From Candidatus Saccharimonadota bacterium (GTDB lineage Bacteria > Patescibacteriota > Saccharimonadia > Saccharimonadales > Saccharimonadaceae), in contig WRMD01000005.1 in NCBI GenBank assembly GCA_009777315.1, forward strand, positions 1 to 57,551: DNA of 57,551 bases, written 5' to 3'. Position 1 is the stretch's first letter. Each line of letters begins with the position of its first letter. Below, one piece after another: positions 5,183 through 57,551 of the stretch. The translations under genes and the position numbers were made by a program. The notes under the pieces are model-generated. The model made no database searches. It was not told the origin of the DNA and saw only the letters and a list, made by a program, of their open reading frames with translations.

Positions 5183-5374
5183 CTACGGGTAGACACAGCG
5201 GAGGGGAATGCCATAGGGTTTGCCAATCGCGTCGGTAGATACGTGGCTATCAACTAGGCGGAGACGGGCGGCGCTTGTATTCAACACGAGGCTAGACAGC
5301 CACCAGTGCGCACTACCCCCGCCCCAGACCAAGCCTCCCCCCGGGCTGAGGCCTTCCGCCCCGACAGTGGCGAA
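5183..5374 (-). pseudogene. Silent FISUMP-like C-terminal cassette 1
   Basis: Open frame of 63 codons plus TAG with no promoter, start codon or ribosome binding site. It begins FATVGAEGLSPGGG, has an aromatic core SAHWWLSSLVLN, and ends GIPLRCVYP. The last six codons and the G-rich flank beyond the stop (to 5172) match the other four cassettes, as do the twelve bases coding FATV; the middle does not. The pattern (WW/YW followed by Ser/Ala, variable strands, then G-x-x-LRCV at the end) resembles the second half of the Fibrobacter succinogenes major paralogous (FISUMP) domain of surface proteins, by recognition rather than search. Upstream codons (DIYLHCSS) stay open but are not shared with most copies. 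Confidence 0.8.
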
Positions 5375-5474
5375 GGAGGAACAGTGTAAATAAATATCTT
5401 CGAGGTTAAAAAGAAAGCCTTGTAATCATATCATTATTTGCATATCATATTACTATATGAAGCAAGGAGTTTTA

Positions 5475-6183: not shown

Positions 6184-6212
6184 AGTATAGCACGCTCGAC
6201 GTCAAAAGTCAA
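6184..6212 (-). promoter_or_regulatory. Minus-strand consensus promoter toward the toxin 3' end
   Basis: TTGACT (6207-6212) and TATACT (6184-6189), spacer 17, with CGTGC before the -10. Predicted start near 6177, leading into repeat copy 1 and antisense to the toxin gene. Its natural product is unclear. Confidence 0.6.
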
Positions 6213-6234
6213 GAAGTTATGCTTATTTGTTTCC

Positions 6235-6438
6235 TTCGCCACTGTCGGGATGGGCTATCTCCGCTCTCCTGTCGGTCTGATCGTTCCGTCCACGGAAGCA
6301 CTTTGGTATGTTGCGTCCTTAGCTGCGGAGGTAAGCGGGACTATTGTATATCTTAACAGCACTTCCATTTTTCCAGGATCAACTAGCAGCGCCAATGGCA
6401 AGTTCCGTGGACATTCCCTCCGCTGTGTCTACCCGTAG
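6235..6438 (+). pseudogene. Silent FISUMP-like C-terminal cassette 2
   Basis: 67 codons plus TAG: FATVGMGYLR at the start, core EALWYVASLAAE, end GHSLRCVYP. No own promoter. The codons just upstream (CLFVS before FATV) are the same as in cassette 3, so this pair shares a longer 5' flank. The 3' flank is especially G-rich: from 6438 it reads G5-T-G4-A-G3-CTA-G3, four G-runs that fit an intramolecular G-quadruplex. It ends directly against the stop codon of the convergent greA at 6458. Confidence 0.8.
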
Positions 6439-6457: not shown

Positions 6458-6901
6458 CTATTTGATTTCGAGGATCTTGTATTTGACCTTGCCTTTGGGG
6501 GCGGAGAATTCGACTTCGTCGCCGGATTTGTGGTGGAGGAGGGCCTTGCCGAGCGGCGATTCAGGGGAGATCTTGCCGGAAAGCGGGTCAGACTCGACTT
6601 CATCGACGATCAAGAAGGTGCTTTTCTTGTTTCGGGAGGAGACGACAACGGTGGCGCCCAGCTCGACTTTGGATTTGCTGCCTTCTTTGATGATGGCGGA
6701 GGTGCGAAGAAGTTCCTCGATCTCGGAGATGCGGTTTTCGACGATAGACTGGTCTTGTTTGGCGTCGGTGTATTCTTGGTTCTCACTGAGGTCGCCGAAG
6801 TCGCGGGCGGTGGCGATGGCCGCCGCCAGCTCTGGTCGGCGGGCGATTAATTTCTTGCGTTCTTGTTCTAACTCTTCTTTTTTGGCCTTCGTAATCTGCA
6901 T
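6458..6901 (-). CDS. greA: Transcription elongation factor GreA (copy 1)
   Basis: 147 residues. GreA inserts its N-terminal coiled coil into the secondary channel of RNA polymerase and stimulates cleavage of backtracked RNA. The coiled coil (1-75) carries the acidic tip segment DFGDLSENQEYTDAK. The C-terminal FKBP-like domain ends ISPESPLGKALL... and VEFSAPKGKVKYKILEIK. GGAGGAGTGAC directly before ATG 6901 is a strong ribosome binding site. A hairpin (6957-6973) separates it from proS upstream. A second, more A+T-rich greA lies at 39785; the proteins share the same length and most motifs. Its stop abuts cassette 2. Confidence 0.95.
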   Translation of the reverse strand: MQITKAKKEELEQERKKLIARRPELAAAIATARDFGDLSENQEYTDAKQDQSIVENRISEIEELLRTSAIIKEGSKSKVELGATVVVSSRNKKSTFLIVDEVESDPLSGKISPESPLGKALLHHKSGDEVEFSAPKGKVKYKILEIK

Positions 6902-20525: not shown

Positions 20526-20616
20526 AAAACCTAGGTTTTACCGTATAGGAAAACCAAGGTTTTCCTCCTTTCCTTAACTGAATCCAAAAGAGACAAGTGA
20601 ATTGTCACTTTTGGAT
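20526..20616 (-). repeat. Two-hairpin repeat, copy 2 (between rplJ and rplL)
   Basis: Minus strand order: hairpin A (20582-20616; ATCCAAAAG with CTTTTGGAT, a one-base mismatch, GACAA/TTGTC, loop TTCAC), linker AGTTAAGGAAAGG, hairpin B (20547-20566; AGGAAAACC, two-base loop, GGTTTTCCT), then an extra hairpin AAAACC-TA-GGTTTT (20526-20539). It is transcribed as part of the rplJ-rplL mRNA. Confidence 0.7.
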
Positions 20617-30459: not shown

Positions 30460-30660
30460 CTACGGGTAGACACAGCGGAGGGAATAGCCATCGAATTTGC
30501 CAGCTGTAGCACTGTCTCCTGGGTCTAGGAGCGTGCTGCCAACGCGGGTTCTGGTTGAGATTGTATTAGAGTGTACTGAGGCAGTCCAATAATGAGGGTT
30601 ACCGGATTGACCGCCCAAGCCACTTCCGGGTCGTGACCAGCTTGCCCCGACAGTGGCGAA
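30460..30660 (-). pseudogene. Silent FISUMP-like C-terminal cassette 3
   Basis: 66 codons plus TAG: FATVGASWSRPGSG at the start, core NPHYWTASVHSNT, end GYSLRCVYP. The sequence just upstream (codons CLFVS) equals that of cassette 2. The 3' flank is TAGGGGGTGGGTAG, one base different from the others. It closely follows the FISUMP pattern with YW then T-A-S. No promoter on this strand; it lies between the rRNA terminator and the rpoB promoter, which points the other way. Confidence 0.82.
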
Positions 30661-30684
30661 GGAGACAAATAAGCATAAAGACTA

Positions 30685-38258: not shown

Positions 38259-39312
38259 GCAGACAATAGCTGATGTGCCGATTAGAGGCAGGACAGTGCT
38301 GGTGCGAGTGGATTATAATGTGCCGCTGGAGAACGGGAGGATCACGAGTGACTTTAGGATACGGGCTGAGCTGCCGACTCTGGAGTATCTACTGAAGCAA
38401 GGGGCTCGGAAAGTGTTCTTGATAGCGCATTTGGGTCGACCGGAGGGTGTGGCTCGAGAGCTTTCGCTCCGGCCGACCGCCGTGGATTTGGCGAAATTGT
38501 TGGACGAGCCGGTGGACTTTGTGGAATATGTGCCGGGAGTACTAGGTAAGCCAGAGGATGTGGCGGCGGCTACGTCGAGAGTGGCTGTGCTGGAGAACTT
38601 GCGATTTTCGGAGGCGGAAGAGACGGATAGTGAAGATTTCGCTCGGGCGCTGGTAGAAGCGACGGGGGCAGATTTGTTCGTGCAGGACGGGTTCGCGAAC
38701 GTGCATCGGAAGCACGCGTCGATGGATGCAATTACGAAGTTGTTGCCGGCGGTGGCTGGATATTTGGTGGAAAAGGAAGTGGCGGATGTGATGAAAGCGA
38801 TTCATGATCCGGTGCGGCCGCTGCTTACGATAATCGGGGGTGCGAAGGTTGAGGATAAGGCGCCGATGGTCGAGAAGATGCTGGAGGTGGCGGATGAGAT
38901 TTGCTTGGGCGGGAAGTTCGCGCAGGATTATACGCCGCCGGAGAGCGAGAAGATATTGATGCCGGTAGACGCGCGGAAGGATGCGGAAGGGCGGAGCTTG
39001 GATATTGGCGATCGGTCGGCGGTGGCGATTGTCGAGGCGATTGATCGGGCGGAGACGATAATTTGGAACGGGACGGTCGGGATGGCGGAAGAGGCGGAGT
39101 TCGCGCGGAGCTCGGAGTTGATTGCGACGGCGCTGGGTCAGAGCGGCAAGACGACGATTATTTGTGGTGGTGATACGACAGGGTTCGTGCTGAATTATCA
39201 GGAGAAGTACCGAGATTTGAAGTATACGTTGATTTCGACTGGGGGTGGGGCGAGTTTGGAGTTGATTCTGGGTGAGCCGTTGCCGGGGTTGGATTGTTTG
39301 TTGGATAAATAA
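38236..39312 (+). CDS. pgk: Phosphoglycerate kinase
   Basis: 358 residues, shorter than the usual 390-415. Converts 1,3-bisphosphoglycerate plus ADP to 3-phosphoglycerate plus ATP. Substrate residues are seen in VRVDYNVPLENGRI, LIAHLGRPEG and the FVQDGFANVHRKHASM segment; the nucleotide lobe has IGGAKVEDKAPMV and the hinge/C-terminal ISTGGGASLELILG. The start is the ATG at 38236 with GGTGGGGAAG before it; the gene begins inside rpoC, so it is translationally coupled to RNA polymerase, an unusual partnership. Confidence 0.95.
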   Translation: MATYQFPKQTIADVPIRGRTVLVRVDYNVPLENGRITSDFRIRAELPTLEYLLKQGARKVFLIAHLGRPEGVARELSLRPTAVDLAKLLDEPVDFVEYVPGVLGKPEDVAAATSRVAVLENLRFSEAEETDSEDFARALVEATGADLFVQDGFANVHRKHASMDAITKLLPAVAGYLVEKEVADVMKAIHDPVRPLLTIIGGAKVEDKAPMVEKMLEVADEICLGGKFAQDYTPPESEKILMPVDARKDAEGRSLDIGDRSAVAIVEAIDRAETIIWNGTVGMAEEAEFARSSELIATALGQSGKTTIICGGDTTGFVLNYQEKYRDLKYTLISTGGGASLELILGEPLPGLDCLLDK

Positions 39313-39313
39313 C

Positions 39314-39474
39314 GGTATCAAAATAACTTCGAGTAAGTCTTTAGCAAAACCCTCACCAAGGTACTAATTTCATTCAGACTCGACGTCGCTTCATCCTATC
39401 GCCATAGGTGAAGCGCGTCTGACTCTCGGTTTGCCAACCTCCGAGACGTCTTCATGAAATTGTACCTTGATACG
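39314..39474 (+). other. Three-way-junction structured element
   Basis: Nested dyads: outer GTATCAA 39315-39321 with TTGATAC 39467-39473; main stem CAAGGTAC.AATTTCAT (39357-39373) with ATGAAATTGTACCTTG (39454-39469); arm I CAGAC, CGCTTCA, CCTAT (39375-39399), loop CGCC, ATAGG, TGAAGCG, GTCTG (39404-39421); arm II TCTCGG (39424-39429) with CCGAGA (39441-39446). This is much better base-pairing than chance and looks like an RNA or a foldback DNA element. It sits directly after pgk and may be read from the rpoBC-pgk transcript. Not a family I recognise. Confidence 0.6.
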
Positions 39475-39544
39475 GCTTTTGCATATTAGGCCCCTAACTA
39501 TTTTGATGCAAACTTGTCAGCCTCTCCTACCCCAGCCTGACTAT

Positions 39545-39690
39545 CTCCCCACCCATATCCTCCGTCTACTCGCGCATACGCGCTCGGACAGGACGCAAAA
39601 GGTCAGGCTTCGCCTGCCTTTTCTAACTCCAGCAAGGAAAGGAAGAAAACCTTGGTTTTCTTAGCAGGAGACAGTGGCTAAGGAAAAGTT
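39545..39690 (-). pseudogene. Possible decayed sixth cassette
   Basis: On the minus strand CCTTAGCCACTGTCTCC at 39690-39667 resembles the FATV end of the cassettes (CCTTCGCCACTGTC), but a stop follows at once. About 120 bp further, GTAGACGGAGGATATGGGTG and GGGAG (39573-39545) weakly resemble the G-rich 3' end. The middle is occupied by two-hairpin repeat copy 4. Weak evidence: short matches only. Confidence 0.25.
39597..39662 (+). repeat. Two-hairpin repeat, copy 4
   Basis: Plus strand: hairpin A (39597-39622; AAAAGG with CCTTTT, bulged T, CAGGC/GCCTG, loop TTC), linker with AGCAAGGAAAGG, hairpin B (39643-39662; AAGAAAACC, TT, GGTTTTCTT). The only copy in this orientation; the next gene in its sense is the second greA. 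Confidence 0.65.
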
Positions 39691-39700
39691 CGCAAAACTC

Positions 39701-39730
39701 TTGAAAATCCGGGGGGGGGGGGAATAATAG
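39701..39730 (+). promoter_or_regulatory. Candidate phase-variable promoter with a G12 spacer tract
   Basis: TTGAAA at 39701-39706, then ATCC and twelve G (39711-39722), then AATAATAG. The -10 candidates are AATAAT (spacer 16) or TAATAG (spacer 18). The mononucleotide tract makes up most of the spacer, so a change of one or two G would alter promoter strength. The next gene, greA copy 2, starts at 39785. Confidence 0.55.
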
Positions 39731-39784
39731 ATTCCATTAGGTGGACGCTAGGACTTCATAAAGCTAAACGAGGAAAAATTTACG

Positions 39785-40228
39785 ATGCAAATTACAAAAG
39801 TCAAGCAAGCGCAACTAAAAGAAGAGCTCAAAGAACTTAAAGCAAGGCGTCCGAAACTTGCCGAAGCTTTAGCTACTGCTCGCGACTTTGGCGACATTTC
39901 TGAAAACCAAGAATACACCGACGCCAGGCAAGAGCAAAATACAGTCGAAAGCCGCATACTCAAGATTGAAAACATCCTCCAGGTTGCCAAAATTATCAAA
40001 GAAGGAAATAAGTCTAAAGTGGAGTTGGGCGCTTCTTTGGTTGTAAAGTGTAAAGGTAAGAAAAGCAACTTTCTTATGGTTAGCGAAATTGAAGCCGACC
40101 CTCTATTAGGTAAAATCTCAACTAAATCGCCGCTAGGCAAAGCTCTGCACGGTCATAAAATTGGCGACGAAGTTGAATTCAAAACTCCCAAAGGTCTAGC
40201 AAAGTACACTATTCTTGAAATTAAGTAA
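39785..40228 (+). CDS. Transcription elongation factor GreA (copy 2)
   Basis: 147 residues, same length and layout as the first GreA: coiled coil with DFGDISENQEYTDARQEQ, then the C-terminal domain with GKISTKSPLGKAL and ending TILEIK. The acidic tip residues are kept, so it should be active in transcript cleavage. The DNA is clearly richer in A and T and uses different codons from its paralogue and neighbours, suggesting acquisition from another lineage or relaxed codon selection. GAGG lies 11 nt before the ATG. A poly-G promoter stands upstream and silent cassette 4 starts 8 bp after the stop. Confidence 0.93.
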   Translation: MQITKVKQAQLKEELKELKARRPKLAEALATARDFGDISENQEYTDARQEQNTVESRILKIENILQVAKIIKEGNKSKVELGASLVVKCKGKKSNFLMVSEIEADPLLGKISTKSPLGKALHGHKIGDEVEFKTPKGLAKYTILEIK

Positions 40229-40236
40229 ACCCCTCC

Positions 40237-40449
40237 TTCGCCACTGTCACTGTTGATGCGATTAACGAGAATGGTTTAGTCGGTCAATCTCTGCAGGCAA
40301 CTTGGTGGGGCGCAGCACTGCACGGCCCAAACAACCCTGGGCGCCTAGTAATAGCCGCACCTCCACTCAGCGCTAACGTGGAAGCTTTCCCCGGTACAGC
40401 AAGTACAGGTAAGGGTCGTGGTACTCCCCTCCGCTGTGTCTACCCGTAG
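40237..40449 (+). pseudogene. Silent FISUMP-like C-terminal cassette 4
   Basis: 70 codons plus TAG, the longest copy: FATVTVDAINENGLVG at the start, core ATWWGAALHGPN, end RGTPLRCVYP. It follows the greA2 stop by 8 bp and could be co-transcribed, but has no start codon or ribosome binding site of its own. The 3' flank is G5-T-G4-A-GG, with a further GGG after AGATGT. Confidence 0.82.
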
Positions 40450-40470
40450 GGGGTGGGGAGGAGATGTGGG

Positions 40471-41142
40471 CTATTCTTCGTCGGAGTCGGGGTAGTGGAA
40501 GAGGCGCGCGAAGTAGGCTTTGAACAGGTAGGAGAGTTCGCGGATTTCGGAATCGTTCATGGGGGTGAAACCGCCGAGAGGGGCGTGTTCGACGCGGCTA
40601 GAGAAGGATTGCAGGTTGCCTTGGGAGTGGATGATTTCGCCGTCTTGGATGAAGAGGACGGTGGGGGCGCTGATGCGGTGGGGAGGGCTGGAGTTGAGTG
40701 CATTATGGAGGGGTGCCAAGCTGCTGTGTTGGAGGATGTCGTGGTCGTTAGAGATGTTGCGGTAGAGGATTTCTTCGACGCCGAAGTCGATGGCGGCGTC
40801 GGCTAGAACCGGGACGAGATTGCGGCACCAGGAACAGTTAGGGAAGCCGAGGTAGACGACGGCAGTGCCGCGACGCTCGAGGAGGTCGATGATTTCGTCG
40901 TAATCGGTGAAGCGGAAAGGGTTTCGCTCGGGGATGTGGATTTCTTGCCAGATGGGATCGGGCTGGTCGGCGCTGACGGGCTGGCCGTTAAGTTCTTCGT
41001 AGGAGGCTTTGAAACGAAGGGCGTCGGCGGTGGGCTCGGCGTATTCACTACCGAAGATGGCGCGGAAACCGATGGCGCCCAAGATGAGAAGGGCGACCGC
41101 AACTAGGGCGATGATGGTTGGTTTCTTTATAGCTAATTTCAT
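40471..41142 (-). CDS. Membrane-anchored thioredoxin-like protein
   Basis: 223 residues. One N-terminal transmembrane helix (about 8-28, PTIIALVAVALLILGAIGF) is followed by an extracytoplasmic thioredoxin-fold domain with the CxxC motif NCSWCRN near 103 and a following AVVYLGFP strand. The overall form is like the bacteriocin-transport accessory/thioredoxin proteins of Gram-positive bacteria. Probably a thiol oxidoreductase for exported proteins, useful for the Cys-containing surface proteins suggested by the cassettes (inference). AAGGAGGG precedes the ATG; minus-strand TATAAT at 41168-41173. Confidence 0.85.
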   Translation of the reverse strand: MKLAIKKPTIIALVAVALLILGAIGFRAIFGSEYAEPTADALRFKASYEELNGQPVSADQPDPIWQEIHIPERNPFRFTDYDEIIDLLERRGTAVVYLGFPNCSWCRNLVPVLADAAIDFGVEEILYRNISNDHDILQHSSLAPLHNALNSSPPHRISAPTVLFIQDGEIIHSQGNLQSFSSRVEHAPLGGFTPMNDSEIRELSYLFKAYFARLFHYPDSDEE

Positions 41143-55664: not shown

Positions 55665-55682
55665 AAAACTCCTTATTTCATT

Positions 55683-55749
55683 AAGAAAACCAAGGTTTTC
55701 TTCCTTTCCTTAACTAAGTTCAGAAACTGCGAAGTGAATTCGCATTTCT
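55683..55749 (-). repeat. Two-hairpin repeat, copy 5 (ftsH leader)
   Basis: Minus strand: hairpin A (55722-55749; AGAAA, TGCGAA with TTCGCA, TTTCT, loop TTCAC, one bulged base), linker with AGTTAAGGAAAGG, hairpin B (55683-55702; AAGAAAACC, TT, GGTTTTCTT). The ftsH -10 TATAAT (55756-55761) places the RNA start at the first base of hairpin A. Confidence 0.75.
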
Positions 55750-57142: not shown

Positions 57143-57340
57143 CTACGGGTAGACACAGCGGAGGGACATGCCATGACTTTTGTGGTAGCCATTAACAGCT
57201 GGCCAGGCACGTCCGTCATCAATATATACGTGCGTAACACTTGCATCAGAGGTTAGAGAGGATGTATGAATTCGTAAAAAGACAGACTGTGCATGCAGGG
57301 TATTAGAAACCCAAAACTCGCCCGCCGAGACAGTGGCGAA
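57143..57340 (-). pseudogene. Silent FISUMP-like C-terminal cassette 5
   Basis: 65 codons plus TAG: FATVSAGEFWVSNTLH at the start, a threonine/serine-rich middle (SSLTSDASVTHVYID), end GMSLRCVYP. The 3' flank GGGGGTGGGGAG runs into the -10 of GPGTD gene B, so the cassette forms that gene's upstream promoter region. No promoter or start of its own. Confidence 0.8.
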
Positions 57341-57345
57341 GTTCT

Positions 57346-57551
57346 TAGACTTGCTTTTATGTGTTGACTTGTTATAAAATGATACTAATGAGGCTTACCT
57401 AGTAAACCTCTTTGGGTTGTTAGGCGCGTCTTAGGACGCGCTAACTATTTGGCCACCCTAAACCCCCGGCTATGCCGGGGGCAAGGCTTTAGCGTCATTA
57501 TGGCTGTTGCCATTCTAAAACCTCCCGGTGCTAGACTAAGATTGCGGTCTG
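57346..57551. other. Gene-free end of window with two strong hairpins
   Basis: No ORF is convincing. GCGCGTC-TTAG-GACGCGC at about 57424-57441 resembles a hairpin in the 23S-5S spacer, and CCCCCGGC-TAT-GCCGGGGG is at 57463-57481. A TTGACT at 57364 has no -10 at proper distance. It may be the leader of a gene beyond the window. Confidence 0.4.

Follow-up and report, generated by a model that had tools for sequence, protein, structure and literature searches.

A Twelve-G Tract in the Spacer of a Putative greA2 Promoter: A Candidate Phase-Variable Switch in Saccharibacteria

Introduction

Can the dose of a Gre factor be made to differ from cell to cell by the length of a homopolymer in its promoter? 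This question is raised by a Saccharibacteria genome (834 kb in 30 contigs, 87% complete) in which a run of twelve Gs lies upstream of greA2, a paralogue of greA. Simple-repeat phase variation is well studied in mucosal pathogens, and in Neisseria the promoter of opc has a poly-C spacer. The Neisseria porA promoter carries poly-G between its –35 and –10 boxes (van der Ende 1995, cited in PMC5320596) and that of fetA (frpB) has a poly-C spacer (PMC5320596); hmbR is a translational contingency locus, with the poly-G placed in the reading frame (PMC3786947). A literature search that covered few subscription journals brought up no account of Saccharibacteria with phase variation by simple repeats, which given this coverage is weak evidence of absence. 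Among the Patescibacteria, the closest cases that it yielded are a Gracilibacterium gene with a hypervariable 9-mer repeat (PMC6851277) and a comment that antigenic variation is possible (PMC11809585). Here, we describe the greA2 locus in its window, the whole stretch of DNA analysed (one complete contig, C5, of 57,551 bases), together with similar tracts in the same genome and across the family.

Layout of the Locus

As read from the window sequence, greA2 belongs to a 1.1-kb insert flanked by pgk and a convergent membrane-protein gene (Table 1). The insert is composed, in this order, of a dispersed repeat, a unique stretch with TTGAAA-ATCC-G12-AATAAT, greA2 and a fragment of a surface-protein C-terminal cassette, the last confirming the adjoining cassette of an earlier note on this DNA. 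The stretch 39688-39784 is single-copy in the genome, in which other copies exist only of the upstream repeat, about 13 of them substantial plus shorter ones, and of the greA body. Within the repeat, a terminator-like hairpin would part pgk transcription from greA2; the number of such sites is no higher than in shuffled sequence, and the RNA fold of 39600-39700 is no improvement over shuffles. The 30-nt element of the repeat recurs (Table 1; L021, L022) just upstream of rplL-like, ftsH-like and groES-like genes and within cassette repeats, and could possibly be a leader element. It is absent from Rfam, a search of which with the window returned rRNA and tRNA only.

Table 1. Features of the greA2 locus and related elements of the same genome; positions lacking a contig name refer to the window.
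Feature	Position	Strand	Evidence or remark
Dispersed intergenic repeat	39600..39687	+	Hairpin, GGAAAGGAAGAAAACCTTGGTTTTCTTA element, GACAGTGGC(G)AAGG end
Terminator-like hairpin CAGGC-TTC-GCCTG + CCTTTTC	39604..39616	+	Promoter/terminator scan of region
30-nt element GGAAAGGAAGAAAACCTTGGTTTTCTTA	39634-39663	+	
30-nt element GGAAAGGAAGAAAACCTTGGTTTTCTTA	20546-20575	-	
30-nt element GGAAAGGAAGAAAACCTTGGTTTTCTTA	55682-55711	-	
Left inverted-repeat motif GACAGTGGCTAAGG, consensus GACAGTGGCGAAGG	39670..39683	+	Sequence, repeat copies
–35 box TTGAAA, 5/6	39701..39706	+	Sequence, promoter scan
ATCC between –35 box and G tract	39707-39710	+	Sequence
G12 tract inside spacer, total spacer 16 nt	39711..39722	+	Sequence, run-length count
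–10 box AATAAT, 5/6, abutting G tract	39723..39728	+	Sequence, promoter scan
Possible ribosome-binding site GAGGA	39770..39774	+	Sequence
greA2, GreA paralogue of 147 aa	39785..40228	+	ORF, Pfam domains, alignment
C-terminal cassette fragment (SFATV...PLRCVYP*)	40225..40449	+	Related to C-terminus of the genome's candidate phase-variable surface proteins
Inverted motif CCTTCGCCACTGTC, start of cassette fragment	40235-40248		
greA1, housekeeping paralogue	6458..6901	-	67% aa identity to GreA2; promoter region without G tract
Other C-terminal cassette (SFATVG...LRCVYP*)	5183-5425	-	
Other C-terminal cassette	6184-6438	+	
Other C-terminal cassette	30460-30681	-	
Other C-terminal cassette	57143-57394	-	
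TTGACA-aaccctgt-G10-TATTAT	C10:17501		Spacer 18
TTGCCA-aaccccca-G9-TATCAT	C18:12447		Spacer 17
TTGACA-tataag-C10-g-TAGAAT (L109)	C14:319-352		Spacer 17; precedes 370-aa ORF
Paralogous surface-protein gene (L103)	C3:48092		
Paralogous surface-protein gene (L104)	C7:13555		
Paralogous surface-protein gene (L105)	C10:9554		
Paralogous surface-protein gene (L111)	C17:5077		

The G Tract and the Putative Promoter

No other G run of the window comes near the G12 tract in length: the second-longest, of 7, is seen once, and no C run exceeds 6; on the plus strand, 0.02-0.03 runs of this length are expected under order-1 and order-3 Markov models and 1.5e-5 under an order-5 model. Direct reading of the sequence confirmed the succession given in the earlier note, namely TTGAAA, four bases, twelve Gs and AATAAT. 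In a scan of 39250-40520, TTGAAA-16-AATAAT (10/12) was the top site and the only plus-strand promoter match upstream of greA2. Its –10 box touches the tract, which is the arrangement of most poly-G promoters in this Saccharibacteria family, and 56 nt separate the end of AATAAT from the greA2 ATG. When both boxes were required to match at least 5/6 around a 12-nt block with a spacing of 15-19, such pairs were found at 0.1% of positions in sampled DNA of the same genome, at 0.2% with shuffled flanks and at 0.8% of AT-rich positions of the genome.

The geometry proposed earlier is also correct: the tract makes up most of the spacer, which measures 16 nt at G12 and would measure 15, 17 and 18 nt at G11, G13 and G14, respectively. 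The parallel with porA stands, as a G homopolymer of at least nine bases lies between the boxes and slippage would carry their spacing through about 17 nt. The –35 usual in the poly-G class of the family is of the TTGAC type and is not seen at greA2, which has TTGAAA; the TTGAC type is a trait of the typical poly-G promoters of the clade and lies outside the general porA-type definition.

greA2 and its Housekeeping Paralogue

The predicted target of the promoter proved to be a GreA paralogue, as the earlier note had it. GreA2 matches both Pfam domains well above their cut-offs, GreA_GreB_N with E 5.5e-21 (75 bits, cut-off 24.5) and GreA_GreB with E 8.4e-19 (67.8 bits, cut-off 26.9), corresponding to the N-terminal coiled coil and the C-terminal FKBP-like domain. 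The acidic coiled-coil tip GD.xEN is conserved, and FGDISENQEY aligns with HGDLKENAEY of the transcript cleavage factor GreA of E. coli (1grj), which GreA2 resembles in a full-length two-domain fit; it differs from it in being an extra, lineage-specific copy whose sequence has diverged and whose codons are AT-rich (GC3 0.39 versus 0.71).

In the tree, greA2, an intact gene, is sister to greA1 (support 100/98) on a longer branch, and a scan of GTDB r220 with GreA2 found relatives that are at most 57% identical and no ortholog of this copy. Since dN between the two genes is 0.24 with dS saturated, greA2 appears to be retained under purifying selection. greA1 follows immediately on a gene resembling those of class II tRNA synthetases, an order shared with relatives, and is likely the ancestral copy; therefore, a spare Gre factor would have been duplicated, landed in the cassette insert and gained a tract-bearing promoter. 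No G tract is found upstream of greA1, so switching of greA2 would alter the dose or timing of the spare factor and not abolish Gre function. Two relatives (G091 and G106) carry G8 and G9 in the leaders of their housekeeping greA genes, about 20 nt downstream of TTGACA/TATAAT; these tracts are transcribed, not in a spacer, and may point to an RNA-level role of G tracts near greA.

Poly-G and Poly-C Spacers Across the Family

In 394 genomes of the family, the pattern TTGAC-N(1-9)-G9 gave 198 matches in 57 genomes and the reversed pattern, used as control, 10 matches in 7 genomes (overlapping positions counted). Of 82 distinct tracts chosen by an upstream TTG[AC]C, the –10 having played no part in the selection, 59 are followed within 10 nt by a TATAAT-like hexamer (at least 5/6), compared with 7% of stretches nearby and 23% of shuffled ones; the hexamer mostly abuts the tract, and 46 of these 59 have a total spacer of 15-20 nt. 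A promoter-unbiased scan for G11 in 61 genomes placed internal tracts mainly in two settings, between the boxes of TTGACA promoters and, within coding sequence, close behind the start codon in genes for secreted or surface proteins. Poly-C spacers are enriched too (27 matches versus 6 in the control, 101 family genomes), so that the class is not limited to G. Outside the family the pattern is rare, with 7 of about 230 other genomes of the phylum. Poly-G spacers are, as predicted promoters, a recurrent form in this Saccharibacteria family, and this family-wide poly-G/C class is in our view a larger finding than the greA2 site.

Within this class greA2 is an atypical member, whose boxes could be a chance occurrence (0.2-0.8%), because the family shows no enrichment of TTGAA-N(1-9)-G9 (8 matches versus 6 in the control). 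The 25 families listed for 74 other genes behind such promoters are mostly surface-type and GreA is missing from them. In relatives, poly-G spacer promoters directly precede type IV pilin-like genes and, also, genes for collagen-like and leucine-rich repeat proteins (five loci).

Neither MutS nor MutL scored above cut-off in any of 41 family genomes, the present one included, in which positive controls were found. Owing to the incompleteness of our genome, their absence from it rests on the family pattern. With both missing, slippage in the tracts should stay uncorrected.

Other Tracts and Cassettes of the Same Genome

The genome has three further promoters with G- or C-tract spacers of 17-18 nt (Table 1). 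Furthermore, four paralogous surface-protein genes bear a G9 or G10 tract about 42 nt downstream of the ATG and, as assembled, each is out of frame, one base off an open frame of 492-710 aa (the longest being counted from an in-frame upstream TTG, and two extending beyond the stretch read). Fib_succ_major is above the Pfam cut-off in two of the proteins, with a weak match in a third. In our reading these four genes would be translational contingency loci, of a design that matches hmbR, which greA2 does not. The C-terminal cassettes of the window lack a promoter and resemble the surface-protein C-terminus (34%, E 2e-7); possibly, they are silent donors for gene conversion.

Weighing the Alternatives

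The best explanation of the locus is, with good though not compelling probability, a phase-variable promoter of greA2 switched by slippage. The earlier interpretation in this sense is sustained in part. The geometry, the recurrence in the family, the further tracts of the same genome, the absence of MutS/MutL and the conservation of greA2 give support; the atypical TTGAAA box tells against it. The rival that survives best, which we nevertheless regard as rather unlikely, is that the promoter is real and the G-rich spacer is kept by descent, its tract being effectively static or a change of spacer having little effect. It agrees with the remaining G9 runs of this genome, which sit within coding sequence and appear incidental. 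A static tract is at odds with a G12 far beyond chance expectation, with the missing mismatch-repair genes and with the paralogous promoters found elsewhere, whose tracts differ in length (G11/G10 and G14/G10).

Improbable is also a sequencing or assembly artefact, either a wrong tract length or a wrong join, as with the poly-G of two-colour chemistry. Contig C12 of the same genome does open with low-complexity sequence including G13 and G23 runs, and contigs of several relatives end in or close to poly-G. The greA2 tract, instead, is internal, has unique flanks on both sides and is bracketed by –35 and –10 boxes, and an equal design is found inside large contigs of near-complete genomes, for example on a 578 kb contig of G010. 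We give a similarly small chance to a tract acting in RNA, in which an upstream promoter would place the G run in the greA2 5' leader and affect pausing, slippage or translation. The greA leaders of G091 and G106 described above would suit this reading; yet 39250-39700 holds no better promoter, the terminator-like hairpin lies in between, and among the other greA loci inspected none has more than five consecutive Gs within 150 nt upstream.

Much less probable is a translational switch, with a short leader ORF starting at GTG 39674 whose frame is set by the tract. The tract begins 37 nt after this GTG, close to the distance in the four surface-protein genes, and at G13 a 55-aa frame would open and overlap greA2. 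The GTG lies within the dispersed repeat, its AGGAG is just 3 nt off, and the 55-aa product, which lacks any signal or membrane segment, stops out of frame in greA2. Finally, a G-quadruplex or fragile site driving recombination of the adjacent cassettes, a role suggested for the G4 at pilE, is barely credible: cassette repeats do lie on both sides of the insert, but the family tracts are often just G9-G10, insufficient for a three-layer quadruplex with loops, and occupy promoters of many unrelated genes.

Proposed Mechanism and Significance

In the slippage-switched reading, greA2 would be transcribed from a sigma-70-type promoter at the TTGAAA/AATAAT site, whose spacer is mostly a homopolymeric G tract. 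Replication slippage would add or remove Gs, without correction by MutS/MutL, so that tract length would vary among cells; the changed count would shift the boxes and give greA2 transcription differing from cell to cell, with output presumably highest near a 17-nt spacer. The altered dose of GreA2 may in turn affect elongation or the rescue of backtracked complexes and, from what is understood of GreA biology, it is plausible that such switching changes global transcription, as the earlier note had suggested.

By analogy, the greA2 site would extend a mechanism like those of porA and fetA to a new phylum and to the gene of an elongation factor. With porA it shares a G homopolymer between the boxes, the length of which sets their spacing; porA, though, encodes an outer-membrane porin of Proteobacteria in which both length and expression were measured, whereas greA2 encodes a GreA paralogue and comes from a Saccharibacteria metagenome-assembled genome. 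fetA and opc are similar in the control of transcription through spacer length and differ in having a C tract and encoding surface proteins, and to these the C10-spacer promoter on C14 is the closer parallel.

A wider scheme is offered tentatively, and we hold it doubtful: Saccharibacteria without mismatch repair might run genome-wide poly-G/C contingency loci consisting of promoters with tracts in their spacers, frame switches near the 5' end of Fib_succ_major genes and silent C-terminal cassettes, which in this lineage would include a Gre factor, so that slippage in one tract could shift RNA polymerase at many genes. If Saccharibacteria do use simple-repeat phase variation, tiny epibionts living on other bacteria would share the bet-hedging design of mucosal pathogens, probably varying the surface presented to their bacterial hosts or to phages, and at least one lineage would have placed a general transcription factor under phase variation.
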